A stretch of 64,000 nt of DNA from an uncultured Eubacteriales bacterium. GTDB lineage: Bacteria > Bacillota > Clostridia > Oscillospirales > Oscillospiraceae. Of this stretch, positions 21,707 to 27,308 are shown in pieces. Numbering within the stretch: the stretch's first letter is position 1; every line of letters begins with the position of its first letter. Below the pieces are notes generated by a model. It worked only from the letters and a program-made list of their open reading frames with translations, had not been told where the DNA came from and did no database searches. The stretch covers positions 1 through 64,000 of the forward strand of contig OMTF01000027.1 in assembly GCA_900313925.1 (NCBI GenBank), written 5' to 3'. Made by a program: the position numbers and the translations under genes.

Positions 21707-22687
21707 TCAGCCCGAAGTATCGGAAATTTTAATTTCCGAAATATCCTGCCGGGAAAGATTGAAGTCCTCGGGAAGCTCTTCCTGTGATACAACGGATAGC
21801 ACAAGCTTGTGCGGCAGGCAGGTAATCGGCGTGGTGCGCCCCGGCTGCAGGGTGCCTTGACGGACGCAGATTTTATCCGGACAGTTGGCGGACTGCATAT
21901 GCACACCTTCCGAATCAATAACGAAGACATTCTCATTTCCCGAGATGGAATCCGAAATTCTGTACGTGCCGTAATCGGTAAGAGGAATTTCATAAAGGAC
22001 GGAGCTGTTCTGATAGACTTCCACATAGTAATCCGATTCCGAATCTTTCCCGATTGCGGTATCCATGTCGAGACCGGAACGGCTGAGGAAGAACCAGGCA
22101 GCACCGGCTGCTAGGAGGAAGATGACAGTCAGAAGAACGTCGGTCTTCCAGCTTTGACGGAAAGGCCGAGGCTCGAAACGATACGTTTCCCCCCGGTTTG
22201 CTTTTTTCAGGGAGCGAAAGACTGCGAGAGACACGGAGCCGGTCAGCGGTCCCATAACAAGTCCGGACAAAACCAGCACGGGAAAATACGCCCAGACGGA
22301 GCCAACACCCAGAAGAACGGAAGCCATGGCAATTTGCCCGATGTTATGGCTTACCGCACCGCAGGAGGAGACGCCGATAACCCCGACTCTTGGCAGTCGG
22401 ACGAGAAGGAGCATGACCGCAAGGCTGAGAACGCCTCCGGCAAGGGAGTAAAGCATCGCCGAAAAGCCTCCGCCGAAGAGCATGCTGGATAGAAATACTT
22501 TGCACAGCATCAGCAGGGCGGCTTCCAGCGTCGTACCCATATAGACGGCGTACAGCAGAACGGTGTTCCCGAGCCCGAGCTTTATACCCGGAATGGTCGG
22601 AGCAATGGGAATCAGAGACTCCACATAGCCGAGGACAAGAGATAAAGCGGTCAGGAGCGCGAATCTTGCGATGGTTCTGGTCTTCAT
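21707..22687 (-). CDS. Gx transporter family protein fused to a NusG domain II
   Basis: Residues 1 to about 165 form a multi-helix membrane domain with the IKLGLGNTVLL segment typical of the Gx-transporter / heptaprenyl-diphosphate-synthase-component-I-like family. A further membrane helix at about 186-204 anchors a C-terminal domain that looks like NusG domain II, with the CPDKICVRQG and ITCLPHKLVL motifs. In many Clostridia these are two separate adjacent genes, often next to apbE and rnf; here they are one frame with no visible break. The ATG at 22687 is chosen because a GGAGG site lies 13 bases upstream; a longer frame to 22762 has no support. It ends the glyQS-nadE-coaX operon. The function of both domains is not established. 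Confidence 0.85.
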   Translation of the reverse strand: MKTRTIARFALLTALSLVLGYVESLIPIAPTIPGIKLGLGNTVLLYAVYMGTTLEAALLMLCKVFLSSMLFGGGFSAMLYSLAGGVLSLAVMLLLVRLPRVGVIGVSSCGAVSHNIGQIAMASVLLGVGSVWAYFPVLVLSGLVMGPLTGSVSLAVFRSLKKANRGETYRFEPRPFRQSWKTDVLLTVIFLLAAGAAWFFLSRSGLDMDTAIGKDSESDYYVEVYQNSSVLYEIPLTDYGTYRISDSISGNENVFVIDSEGVHMQSANCPDKICVRQGTLQPGRTTPITCLPHKLVLSVVSQEELPEDFNLSRQDISEIKISDTSG

Positions 22688-22723
22688 AAAAAGAAAAAAC
22701 CTCCGGGGCGGATAACCGCATGC

Positions 22724-22747
22724 GCCCATCACCGGGCGGTGATGGGC
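22724..22747 (-). repeat. Hairpin between coaX and the Gx fusion gene
   Basis: GCCCATCACC and GGTGATGGGC form a perfect ten-bp stem with a four-base loop. No T tract follows on the minus strand, so it is not a clear terminator. It may stabilise the coaX message or weaken read-through. Confidence 0.5.
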
Positions 22748-22770
22748 TGCATACGGCGGCAATGTGCCGA

Positions 22771-23538
22771 TCAGTGTTTATTTCTGCGGTAAAGAGCCCC
22801 GAGCCCCTTCAGCAGAAGGTCATTGTCCAATACAATATCGTGCCTGCAGTGGGGGACAATAATCCGAGCCATGCTGCCGGTGGCAAGAATTATCGGATTA
22901 TCCAACAACTCGTCGGTCATCCGGTCAATCATGCCGTCGATCATGGCGGCGCTGCCGTACACCACGCCGCTGCGCATGCAGTCGGCTGTATTCGTTGCGA
23001 TCGTTTTCCGGGGCGCTTCAATGGATACATTTTGCAGCAGAGACGTATTGGAGATCAGCGCGTTCAAACTCAAAAGCATGCCGGGAATAATAGCGCCACC
23101 GATGTAGCTTGCATTGCGATCAATTACCGATATAGTCGTTGCGGTATCCATATCCAGCACGATTGCCGGCGCTCCGTATTCCTCAATGGTTGCCGCGGTC
23201 AGCGCAACAAGGTCCGCACCCATGGTGCTGGGCGCGTCTATTTTGATATTGAAGCCCGTGCGGATGCCCGCGCCGACTACGAGAGGCTGCACTTTCAAAA
23301 GCTTTTCAATGGCGATGTGCACGGAGTCGGTGACCGAAGGGACAACCGACGAAAGAATTGCGCCGTCAATCTGCTTCAGATCAATCGCTTCAAATTCCAG
23401 CAGCTGCCGAAGCTTTACAGCATATTCGCTGATGGTAGATAGTTTGTTTGTTACGATTTTTCCAATGTTGTGAACATGGCTGCCTTCAATACAGCCGATG
23501 GCAATATGGGTATTGCCGACGTCTACCGCAAAGATCAT
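22771..23538 (-). CDS. coaX: Type III pantothenate kinase
   Basis: It catalyses the first step of coenzyme A synthesis. The ASKHA-fold motifs are clear: IFAVDVGNTHIAIG at the start, a GADLVAL segment for pantothenate, and VLDMDTATT. The length of 255 residues is normal. The ATG at 23538 is used because GGGGGG lies nine bases upstream; a start nine bases earlier has no better site. It is co-oriented with nadE (30-base gap), so coenzyme A and NAD synthesis genes share one operon. Confidence 0.95.
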   Translation of the reverse strand: MIFAVDVGNTHIAIGCIEGSHVHNIGKIVTNKLSTISEYAVKLRQLLEFEAIDLKQIDGAILSSVVPSVTDSVHIAIEKLLKVQPLVVGAGIRTGFNIKIDAPSTMGADLVALTAATIEEYGAPAIVLDMDTATTISVIDRNASYIGGAIIPGMLLSLNALISNTSLLQNVSIEAPRKTIATNTADCMRSGVVYGSAAMIDGMIDRMTDELLDNPIILATGSMARIIVPHCRHDIVLDNDLLLKGLGALYRRNKH

Positions 23539-23567
23539 ACGGAACAACCCCCTTCTGGCAGGGCAGC

Positions 23568-25472
23568 TTACAGCCCCAGTTCCTTTTCCAGATCTTCAAC
23601 TTCCTTCAAATATAGCGTATCCATACCGTCAGAGGGTATGCGGAAACCGACGCGGGGCGAAACAGAGAACTTCTCTACCGCAGGACCATCCATCAGACAG
23701 GAGCGCTTGAACTGCTGGCTGAAAAGTCTGCGGCAGTAGCTCTTGAGCCAATGAATCAGCTCTTTGTCATCAAACTCGTCTCCGTATGCAATTTTTGCCA
23801 GCCGGAAGGTCTTGCGCGGAGTAAAGCCGCAGATCAGCATCTTATGCGTAAAGAAGTCCTGCAGGCTGTACGATCCGACGCTTTCTTCGCTCTTCTGCTC
23901 AATCGTGTCATCGTGTACCGGAAGAAGCTCCGGTGTTACCGGGCAGTCCAGTACGTCCCACAGCGCATCCGCCAGAGTCTTGTTTTTCGTATTTTGGGCG
24001 ATATGCTTGACAACGGCGCGGACCTGCGTTTTTGTTACGCCCATGTTGACGTCGTACATGCTGGTATGATCCCCGTTATACGTACACCAGCCGTCGATAT
24101 ATTCGCTGAGATCCTCGGTTCCCACATCCAGACCGTTCACTTCATTTGCAATATCCATGAGCACCTGCGTTCGCTCACGGGCCTGGGCATTTTCAAAGGC
24201 GATGCTGTAGTCATCGCGGGCGTGCCCGATATCGTCAAAATGCTGGTTTACACTGTCCCCGATATCGATAACGCGAACCTCGGCGCCGATCTGCTCGGCA
24301 ACGATAATCGCATTGGATTTCGTACGCGAAGTTGTGCCGAAGCAGGGCATGGTGCAGGCGACAACGTTCGTGCCGGGCAGGCCCATGCGCCGGATGGCTT
24401 CCGCGCAGACCATAACGCACAGCGTGGAATCGACGCCGCCGGAAATTCCGACAACGCAGTGATCCAGCCCGGCATATTTCATACGCTTGACCAAGCCGGA
24501 AACCTGAATATCAAAAAGCCTTTCACAATAGGCGGGAATATCCTTCTGCAGTTCCGGAAGATGCGGGTTCTTGGAAAAATAGCGCGTGAGGGTGGTTTCC
24601 GATTCTTCCAGGCCCCAGTCAATACACGACAAGGTGTCGACATCGAACTGCCGATCCGCGATGCGGAGATTCGCAAGGTAATTCACATCAATTTCGGATA
24701 GGGCATAGCTGTCTTCGGCTTCGCTCTCACTGAGAATTACTCCATTTTCCGTCACCATGCAGAGACCCGAATACACATTGTCGGTAGAGGACTCTCCTTT
24801 GCTGGGAGAAGCAGTAAGAAAACCTGCCTTCAGATGCTCTGAGCAGAATTTTATCTTCTGCTCTTCCTCCTCCCGCGAGGTAACCGTCATGGGAAAGCTC
24901 GCAAGCTGCACAATGACGGACGCTCCGGAAAGGCAGAGATCCAAAGAGGGAGGAAGCAGGGCGTCCTTGTCGGGGCCAAGTTCCATGCCGACGATGAGAT
25001 CTCTGCAGCAGGAATGCCGAAACAGCAGATTATTGCCAAACGGAACCTCCGAAGCGCCGGCAGCGTCTACCGTCTGATACTCTGAATCATTATCCGGAAC
25101 GGCAAACAGCGTGCCTTCTGCATCCTGCCGCGGAACAAAGCCAAGAATACTGCCGTCGAAAACGGCGGCGCCGACACTGTAGACTCGAACACCGACACGA
25201 AGCGGGAGTCCGATGAGAATCAGCATGTCCATGTTCCTGCTTGCCTCTGCGACTTTTTGCAGAGCCCGCTCTGCACCATCGAGAAGAGGACGCTGTGTGA
25301 AAAGCGCGCCGCAGGTGCATCCCGTGAGTGTGAGTTCCGGAAAGGCAAGAATCCGAACACACTTTTTCTGTGCGTCCTTCATGATTTCAATCGCCCGATC
25401 CGCATTGTAATCCGGGTCTGCAACACGGATCATCGGTGCGGCGGCTGCCGCCTTGATAAAACCGTCAAACAT
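23568..25472 (-). CDS. nadE: NAD+ synthetase with a probably inactive glutaminase domain
   Basis: The C-terminal half is a standard NAD+ synthetase with the PP-loop ISGGVDSTLCV, and should amidate deamido-NAD+. The N-terminal half is a nitrilase-fold domain like that of glutamine-dependent NadE. Of the expected Glu-Lys-Cys triad, Glu46 is kept (FPELTLTG). The Lys position reads Arg115 (FVPRQD instead of the usual PK pattern). The Cys position reads Gly166 (VGMELGPD where relatives have VEICED, aligned without gaps up to the following PPS). The enzyme therefore probably uses free ammonia or a partner. Total length of 634 residues is typical. The ATG at 25472 follows a GGGGGA site. Confidence 0.92.
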   Translation of the reverse strand: MFDGFIKAAAAAPMIRVADPDYNADRAIEIMKDAQKKCVRILAFPELTLTGCTCGALFTQRPLLDGAERALQKVAEASRNMDMLILIGLPLRVGVRVYSVGAAVFDGSILGFVPRQDAEGTLFAVPDNDSEYQTVDAAGASEVPFGNNLLFRHSCCRDLIVGMELGPDKDALLPPSLDLCLSGASVIVQLASFPMTVTSREEEEQKIKFCSEHLKAGFLTASPSKGESSTDNVYSGLCMVTENGVILSESEAEDSYALSEIDVNYLANLRIADRQFDVDTLSCIDWGLEESETTLTRYFSKNPHLPELQKDIPAYCERLFDIQVSGLVKRMKYAGLDHCVVGISGGVDSTLCVMVCAEAIRRMGLPGTNVVACTMPCFGTTSRTKSNAIIVAEQIGAEVRVIDIGDSVNQHFDDIGHARDDYSIAFENAQARERTQVLMDIANEVNGLDVGTEDLSEYIDGWCTYNGDHTSMYDVNMGVTKTQVRAVVKHIAQNTKNKTLADALWDVLDCPVTPELLPVHDDTIEQKSEESVGSYSLQDFFTHKMLICGFTPRKTFRLAKIAYGDEFDDKELIHWLKSYCRRLFSQQFKRSCLMDGPAVEKFSVSPRVGFRIPSDGMDTLYLKEVEDLEKELGL

Positions 25473-25503: not shown

Positions 25504-25866
25504 CTAGGATCGCCGGAAAGTAAATAGACTTTCATCGAAATATCGAAGCAGCGCAGAACGCGTTACGGCGTAATGCTTACTTTCAATGACTACTGTCAGC
25601 CGTCCGTTTTCGGGATAGCAATCGGTGATGCCCTCAACGTTCGGAAATACCGAGGTCTCCAATTCCCTTTGCAGTTCGTCCAAATGCTGCTGATAATATG
25701 CGGCTTCCTCCGGCGGTTCGTATCCCGGAATGGGATCCCGGCCCGCGGTGAAGCATAGGACCAGAACCGCGATGGAAAACAGGAGGACCAGAATGGCGCC
25801 TCCGGGCCGCAGCCAGCGGACAAATTCCTGCCCTGCAGATTCCTGCGGGCGCTCCTCTTCCGGCAT
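25504..25866 (-). CDS. Small membrane-anchored protein of unknown function
   Basis: A 120-residue protein with a short acidic N terminus, one membrane helix (about residues 22-41) and a soluble C-terminal domain of some 75 residues that contains a predicted helix rich in Gln and Glu followed by strands. No family was recognised. Its ATG overlaps the glyQS stop by one base (TGATG), so it is translationally coupled to glyQS, and nadE follows about 30 bases later. Confidence 0.65.
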   Translation of the reverse strand: MPEEERPQESAGQEFVRWLRPGGAILVLLFSIAVLVLCFTAGRDPIPGYEPPEEAAYYQQHLDELQRELETSVFPNVEGITDCYPENGRLTVVIESKHYAVTRSALLRYFDESLFTFRRS

Positions 25867-27308
25867 CAGATCGAAATCCGGTCGGCAATATACTGCCGGA
25901 CCCCCTCCAGCGGAATGCGGACCTGCTCCATCGAGTCGCGGTCCCGTATCGTGACCTTTCCATCTCCTGCGGCCCCCGTATTCGGATCGTCTACCGTCTG
26001 GAAATCCAGTGTCACGCAGAAAGGCGTTCCGATTTCATCCTCCCTGCGATACCGTTTGCCGATGGAACCGGTTACGTCAAAATCGCACATAAAATCCCTT
26101 GAAAGCTCTTCGTAAAGCTTCTGTGCCGGACCGGTCAGAATCTCTTTTTTCGAGAGCGGCAGAATGGCGCATTTATAAGGCGCAAGAGCCGGGTGAAGGT
26201 GCAGGACGGTACGAATGTCATCATGCCCCTTCTTATCCTGTCCCACGACCTGCTCGTCATACGCGTCCGTCAGGACGGCAAGAACGCAGCGCTCCACGCC
26301 GAGGGAAGGCTCAATCACGTACGGAATGTAGTGCTCGTTTTTATCCGCATCATAATAAGTCAGGTCCTGACCGGAAGTTTCCTGATGACGAGTGAGGTCA
26401 TAGTTCGTCCGGTCAGCGACGCCCCATAGTTCGCCCCATCCGAAGGGGAAGAGATACTCAAAGTCCGTGGTTGCCTTGGAATAGAAGCTCAATTCCTCCG
26501 GCTCATGATCCCGCAGACGGAGATTTTCCTCCTGCAGGCCGAGCGTCAGCAGAAACTGATGGCAGAAGTTTCTCCAGTATTGGAACCACTCCATATCGGT
26601 GTCGGGCTCACAGAAGAATTCCAGTTCCATCTGCTCAAATTCACGGACGCGGAAGATAAAATTTCCCGGTGTAATTTCATTGCGGAAGCTTTTTCCAATC
26701 TGGCCGATGCCGAAGGGGAGCTTCCGTCGGGTTGTCCGGGCGACATTGGCGAAATTAACAAAAATTCCCTGTGCCGTTTCCGGCCGGAGATATACGGTAT
26801 TCTTTGCGTCTTCGGTAACGCCTTGAAACGTCTTAAACATCAGGTTGAACTGACGGATATCTGTAAAATTATGCTTGCCGCAGGAAGGGCAGGGAATCTG
26901 GTGCTCCTCAATGTAGTCCTTCATTTCCTGCTGGCTGAAAGAATCTATTGGCTTGGGCAGGGAAACGGCATTGTCCGCTGCCCAGTTTTCGATCAGGTCG
27001 TCCGCACGGAAGCGTTCCTTGCATTCCCGGCAGTCCATCAGAGGATCGGAAAACCCTCCCAGATGACCGGAGGCGATCCATGTCTGCGGGTTCATCAGAA
27101 TAGCGGCATCCAGACCGACGTTATACGGGTTTTCCTGGATGAATTTCTTCCACCAGGCTTTCTTTACATTGTTTTTCAGTTCTACACCGAGAGGGCCGAA
27201 ATCCCAGGTGTTTGCCAAACCGCCGTAAATCTCGCTGCCGGCAAAAATGATGCCGCGGTTCTTGCACAGCGCAACGATTTTCTCCATCGTTTTATCTTGA
27301 TTTTTCAT
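25866..27308 (-). CDS. glyQS: Glycyl-tRNA synthetase, dimeric type
   Basis: A 480-residue class II synthetase that charges tRNA(Gly). It is the single-chain alpha2 form, not the alpha2beta2 form. Features: the N-terminal [20 protein letters not shown], the [15 protein letters not shown] motif, [20 protein letters not shown] (motif 2), and a C-terminal anticodon-binding domain with [20 protein letters not shown]. Two CxxC pairs in the insertion (CRECKE and CPSCGK) may bind zinc. It is the first gene of a five-gene minus-strand operon (glyQS, small membrane protein, nadE, coaX, Gx fusion). No T-box is visible in its leader. Confidence 0.96.

Follow-up and report, generated by a model that had tools for sequence, protein, structure and literature searches.

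A long-form NAD(+) synthetase with an inactivated glutaminase domain, probably supplied by free ammonia, in class Clostridia

What does a long-form NAD(+) synthetase do once its glutaminase domain has lost the residues of catalysis, and from where would it then draw its nitrogen? The question is raised by a gene in the window, that is, the whole stretch of 64,000 nucleotides analysed here (contig OMTF01000027.1, from a gut bacterium). The gene is full-length with an intact ORF, and an earlier, sequence-only reading had credited it with the length and domain order of a glutamine-dependent NadE. This assignment of length and order held: the 634-aa ORF contains the Pfam domains NAD_synthase and CN_hydrolase, the NCBIfam profile PRK02628 matches residues 3-630 with 602 bits, above its cut-off (473 bits), and a phmmer alignment with M. 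tuberculosis NadE is colinear over residues 4-626 (E 2e-92). The gene and its two domains are placed as follows.

23568..25472, minus strand: nadE-like gene, a long-form NAD(+) synthetase with an inactivated glutaminase domain (634 aa; ORF and translation)
24642..25466, minus strand: nitrilase-fold (pseudo-glutaminase) domain, residues 3-277 (structural match, Z 27-29)
23571..24575, minus strand: synthetase domain, residues 300-634 (Pfam)

An AlphaFold model, built from an alignment of sequences of the gene's own clade (described below) and of live, that is, intact, homologues, has a mean pLDDT of 84.5 and shows the nitrilase-fold domain and the PP-loop synthetase domain joined within a single chain. 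Compared with M. tuberculosis NadE it scores a Z of 42.7 over 599-612 residues (3.1 Å over 599 residues for 3SYT, spanning residues 1-632), and its residues 1-277 match amidases of the nitrilase superfamily at Z 27-29. The alpha-beta-beta-alpha nitrilase fold is therefore predicted by the model to be retained despite the lost catalysis. Sequence and fold both place the protein in the long NadE family. The label “glutamine-dependent”, in turn, should not be used for it, since the complete triad and the YRE loop that define the glutaminase were looked for and are not there.

The glutaminase of these enzymes relies on a Cys-Glu-Lys triad, which is incomplete here. The sequence-only reading had the Glu kept, the Lys changed to Arg and the nucleophile Cys to Gly, and it proposed an alignment with M. 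tuberculosis NadE together with a model of the fold; both were carried out and confirm the triad mapping and the fold, with the codons read directly and the phmmer alignment free of gaps around Cys176.

25335..25337, minus strand: Glu46, equivalent to M. tuberculosis Glu52, the triad residue that is kept (phmmer alignment)
25128..25130, minus strand: Arg115 at the position of the catalytic Lys121, codon CGG (codon read and alignment)
25107..25127, minus strand: shortened YRE loop, residues 116-122, lacking the second catalytic Glu132 (loop-length comparison)
24975..24977, minus strand: Gly166 at the position of the nucleophile Cys176, codon GGC (codon read and alignment)
23679..23681, minus strand: Ala598 at the position of Lys644, a constriction of the ammonia tunnel (alignment)

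The loss extends well beyond the triad. Structural studies of the human and M. tuberculosis enzymes (PMC6946656) point to several other important residues: a second Glu, Glu132, in the YRE loop, the glutamine gates Glu177 and Phe180, Tyr58 at constriction 1, and Lys644 at constriction 2A of the tunnel. The YRE loop of the 634-aa protein is about 7 residues shorter than that of live enzymes and has no YRE motif, and the equivalents of Tyr58, Glu177, Phe180 and Lys644 are all altered. Among 216 live enzymes, by comparison, the nucleophile Cys, the catalytic Lys and an aromatic residue at Phe180 are present in every one, and Tyr58, Glu177, the Lys644 equivalent and a YRE loop of at least 12 residues are each found in 215. 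In the 41 full-length sequences of the window's clade, the Cys is replaced by Gly (38) or Ala (3), the catalytic Lys and the Tyr58 equivalent each survive in two sequences, and neither the long loop nor the Lys644 equivalent occurs at all.

The reading had also suggested a survey of the Cys change in relatives, and the survey recovered both this clade of 41 and 17 scattered losses. In a first sample of 200 distinct homologues, taken from named genomes and from the family and the order, the complete triad of Glu, Lys and Cys is present in 147; the clade without the Cys, which includes the window's sequence, is supported by an SH-aLRT of 100 in a tree built from the synthetase domain only, and seven further Cys losses are dispersed among live enzymes. 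Ten more came from a sample of the class Clostridia (n=79), bringing the scattered losses through Clostridia to 17 against 216 intact enzymes sampled, with the alignment of the Cys site uncertain in the most diverged sequences (L332-L334). On the joint tree, in which some class-level sequences are long branches of unsure placement, 15 changes are needed and at least six are forced by strongly supported branches. Judged from these sequences, glutaminase loss is recurrent and has arisen in several lineages of class Clostridia, and the combination of a clade-wide change with many separate losses marks an evolutionary pattern rather than the peculiarity of a single gene. Gly is by far the commonest substitute for the Cys, in 12 of the 17 scattered cases as in the clade. 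Moreover, the scattered cases often still have the Lys (13/17) or the full YRE loop (6/17), which would fit a loss of the Cys before other parts of the glutaminase. Chance or sequencing error as the cause of the incomplete triad was rejected, because the state is common to 41 full-length homologues under purifying selection. An apparent gene fission in a near relative (L092/L056) proved to be an assembly gap of N, with no split gene.

The dead gene also appears to be a direct, in-place descendant of a live one. In the tree the clade branches, with modest support (80-84), from within the live NadE genes of its own family, and several of these share the gene order of the window, in which glyS and a small gene precede nadE.

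25866..27308, minus strand: glyS (glycyl-tRNA synthetase), the upstream neighbour (NCBIfam PRK04173, 672 bits)
25504..25866, minus strand: 120-aa protein between glyS and nadE, with no Pfam or NCBIfam match (profile searches)
22771..23547, minus strand: coaX (type III pantothenate kinase), 20 bp downstream of nadE

Homologues of the 120-aa gene occupy the same place in 16 of 54 clade loci and stand directly before the live nadE in 7 of 81. Other linkages are more characteristic of the clade: glyS lies upstream on the same strand at 44/54 clade loci versus 5/81 live ones, coaX lies near nadE in either orientation at 22/54 versus 0/81, and gdhA, encoding an NADP-dependent glutamate dehydrogenase, is close by at 15 clade loci versus 0/81, all of these counts ignoring kinship, just as the co-occurrence and neighbourhood p-values are uncorrected for it and the clade is a single lineage. 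The gdhA-linked loci of the dead gene (L063-L091) come mostly from rumen and gut assemblies.

Taken together, the most probable reading is that of a long-form NAD synthetase with a dead glutaminase domain that amidates NaAD from free ammonia. The synthetase domain would adenylate NaAD with ATP, the adenylated NaAD would then be amidated by free ammonia, and the dead domain would persist because it helps the protein to fold, to assemble into oligomers or to be regulated. A dead glutaminase beside an intact synthetase, the core of the sequence-only reading, is supported by every comparison made, and free ammonia, one of the sources it had named, is supported as the most likely donor. Ammonia is the in vivo substrate of short NadE enzymes and is also accepted by long forms in vitro (PMC3376133, PMC6946656), so the loss of the glutaminase from a long NadE should leave an enzyme that runs on ammonia. 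Loss of the YRE loop, Tyr58 and Lys644 suggests that the ammonia tunnel no longer serves in its original form. The glutaminase domains make up the core of the octamer in known long NadE (PMC6946656), and a structural role of this kind would explain why the dead domain has been retained.

The synthetase site itself, including the PP-loop that had been called intact, is well preserved.

24423..24443, minus strand: PP-loop SGGVDST, residues 344-350, intact (translation and alignment)

Equivalents of M. tuberculosis Trp490, Glu455, Asp497, Phe634 and Lys635, which belong to the ATP/NaAD site, are kept in the 634-aa protein as Trp462, Glu427, Asp468, Phe588 and Lys589, and these together with the PP-loop residues are kept in 41/41 members of the clade.

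Gene content counts for the ammonia-dependent reading as well. In 16 of the 17 scattered-loss genomes the dead long form is the sole NAD synthetase found; two of these 16, G520 (97% complete) and G541 (99%), are single-contig genomes. The genomes G056 and G051 carry nadD plus pncB or nadC, so that NAD should run through the dead-domain enzyme, and both also have a PnuC-type transporter, through which preformed precursors may be taken up. The proximity of gdhA, which encodes an ammonia-assimilating enzyme, was counted on the same side.

The window's own clade is a more complicated case, and the rival that survives best concerns this clade alone. Here the enzyme would have been repurposed to adenylate another carboxylate (e.g., NaMN) or to serve a specialised NAD pool, with a short or live-long NadE making the NAD. 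A second NAD synthetase of either sort was found in 21 of 25 clade genomes (a set that includes G218, a fragment without the Cys site), the host among them, versus none of the 44 genomes that carry a live long form, each of which has exactly one NAD synthetase (triad read in 43). An NAD synthetase role is thus not forced by need in those clade genomes. The host's second enzyme is a short, NH3-type NadE beside pyrG (pyrG being a reading of the neighbouring ORF), and the organism therefore need not depend on the 634-aa protein. Moreover, the stem branch of the clade is long (0.74), and 28 of 115 otherwise conserved columns of its synthetase domain have switched, while the non-divergent scattered losses retain 91% of the conserved columns; this difference indicates that more than glutaminase loss took place in the clade. 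Residues newly fixed there include Glu453 (38/41), Asp460 and Thr480 (41/41 each). Together with Asp449 (31/41), the first two place three acidic residues near the NaAD helix, at positions 449, 453 and 460, where live enzymes carry Val, Gly and Leu. Finally, the clade genome G246 (locus L045, 95% complete) retains the dead-domain gene, with no match to nadD above the cut-off and neither pncB nor nadC found. Against repurposing, all the mapped contact residues for NaAD and ATP are kept in 41/41, and the clade genome G286 (95% complete) has nadD and pncB with no other NAD synthetase found; its short-NadE site carries other DNA, on a contig that ends 2 kb past the site, for which reason G286 was dropped as proof of a genome without the short enzyme. 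On balance, repurposing is unlikely.

The fixed new residues and the second NAD synthetase would be compatible with a change of substrate or of regulation in the clade, and a two-step history is conceivable in which recurrent glutaminase loss in gut and rumen Clostridia first yielded an ammonia enzyme and the clade's synthetase was later remodelled for a different task in the metabolism of NAD or nitrogen. The signs cited for this second step are the new residues, the glyS-nadE-gdhA neighbourhood and the additional synthetase in the cell; it is offered as a tentative, rather doubtful extension. Two other accounts of the switched columns were dropped: their clustering at the domain interface is a weak enrichment (11/30 there versus 17/85 elsewhere, p 0.08), and the short NadE of the host family is without the changed residues, contrary to a convergence of the clade on the ammonia-type enzyme.

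A separate glutaminase or amidotransferase subunit might instead supply the ammonia in trans, as two-subunit NAD synthetases do exist, in Thermus (PMC3376133). The recurring neighbours at the clade loci are glyS, coaX and gdhA, with no glutaminase gene among the conserved neighbours, and the YRE loop, Tyr58 and Lys644, which belong to the inlet and the tunnel, have been lost as well, so that this arrangement is most improbable. Still less probable is a glutaminase that remains active through another nucleophile or a different alignment, with glutamine still the donor. Glu46 and the fold are kept, and three cysteines (Cys54, Cys155 and Cys156) lie within the domain; the latter two belong to the CCRD segment, which the sequence-only reading had itself raised as the case that could overturn it. 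That case was rejected: Cys155 and Cys156 fall about 10 residues ahead of the Cys176 position and are absent from that place in the nearest relatives, including the nearest full-length one, L008 (LFVNKNVPDMKIAVELGADRD), and Cys54 occurs in 99% of live enzymes, alongside their true nucleophile. Also gone are the Lys, the gate at Glu177 and the second Glu, and the Cys site aligns with M. tuberculosis Cys176 without gaps.

Selection was measured domain by domain in 14 close pairs from the clade. The synthetase domain gave a dN/dS of 0.03-0.17 and the nitrilase domain 0.07-0.43, and the ratio of dN between the nitrilase and synthetase domains has a median of about 3 in the clade versus about 1.7 in live pairs. 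Purifying selection acts on both domains, strongly on the synthetase, and the dead domain is relaxed yet constrained. A decaying pseudogene or an assembly error, for which only the faster evolution of the dead domain would speak, is scarcely credible given these constraints (below 0.45 even in the dead domain), the intact ORF, the sharing of the state across the clade and the conserved linkage to glyS.

The free-ammonia enzyme favoured here can be set beside three known systems. With the glutamine-dependent, type F NadE of M. tuberculosis (PDB 3DLA, 3SYT and 6OFC), it shares the two-domain order, the fold, the PP-loop, the NaAD site and the C-terminal extension, and it differs in the altered or lost Cys, Lys, YRE loop with second Glu, Glu177, Phe180, Tyr58 and Lys644. 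With the NH3-dependent, single-domain NadE (type N, like the host's copy beside pyrG), it shares the predicted use of ammonia; type N has no nitrilase domain, whereas the 634-aa protein retains a whole one and is a long-form enzyme by sequence. A known parallel is CPS1 of urea-making vertebrates, which has lost its catalytic Cys (Ser294 in human), uses ammonia only and has kept the inactive domain, with the old tunnel blocked and ammonia thought to enter elsewhere (PMC4655335). Both are amidotransferases without the catalytic Cys that retain an inactive glutaminase domain. However, CPS1 is an unrelated enzyme with an equally unrelated class of glutaminase, its activity is demonstrated whereas that of the dead-domain NadE is predicted, and the loss in NadE recurs in several lineages.

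No description of a NadE with an inactive glutaminase was found in the open-licence literature searched. Automatic annotation labels the dead-domain proteins as NAD(+) synthase, and the sequence rule that has been published for recognising glutamine use is based on interface elements of the synthetase domain (PMC3376133); the rule takes no account of the triad, and a dead-domain NadE could thus be misread as glutamine-dependent. The scattered losses form a natural series, from loss of the Cys alone to loss of triad, loop and tunnel, in which it can be asked what a non-hydrolysing glutaminase domain still does. It can also be asked whether amidotransferases are able to give up glutamine because of the high ammonia of the gut.

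Two further observations may be added. In G002, a genome of the window's genus (94% complete), nadD and pncB are present and no NAD synthetase was found. Finally, between coaX and the apbE-rnfB region of the window, a single ORF (21707-22762, minus strand) fuses a PF07456 membrane domain (heptaprenyl diphosphate synthase component I/Gx-type transporter) to a NusG_II domain.
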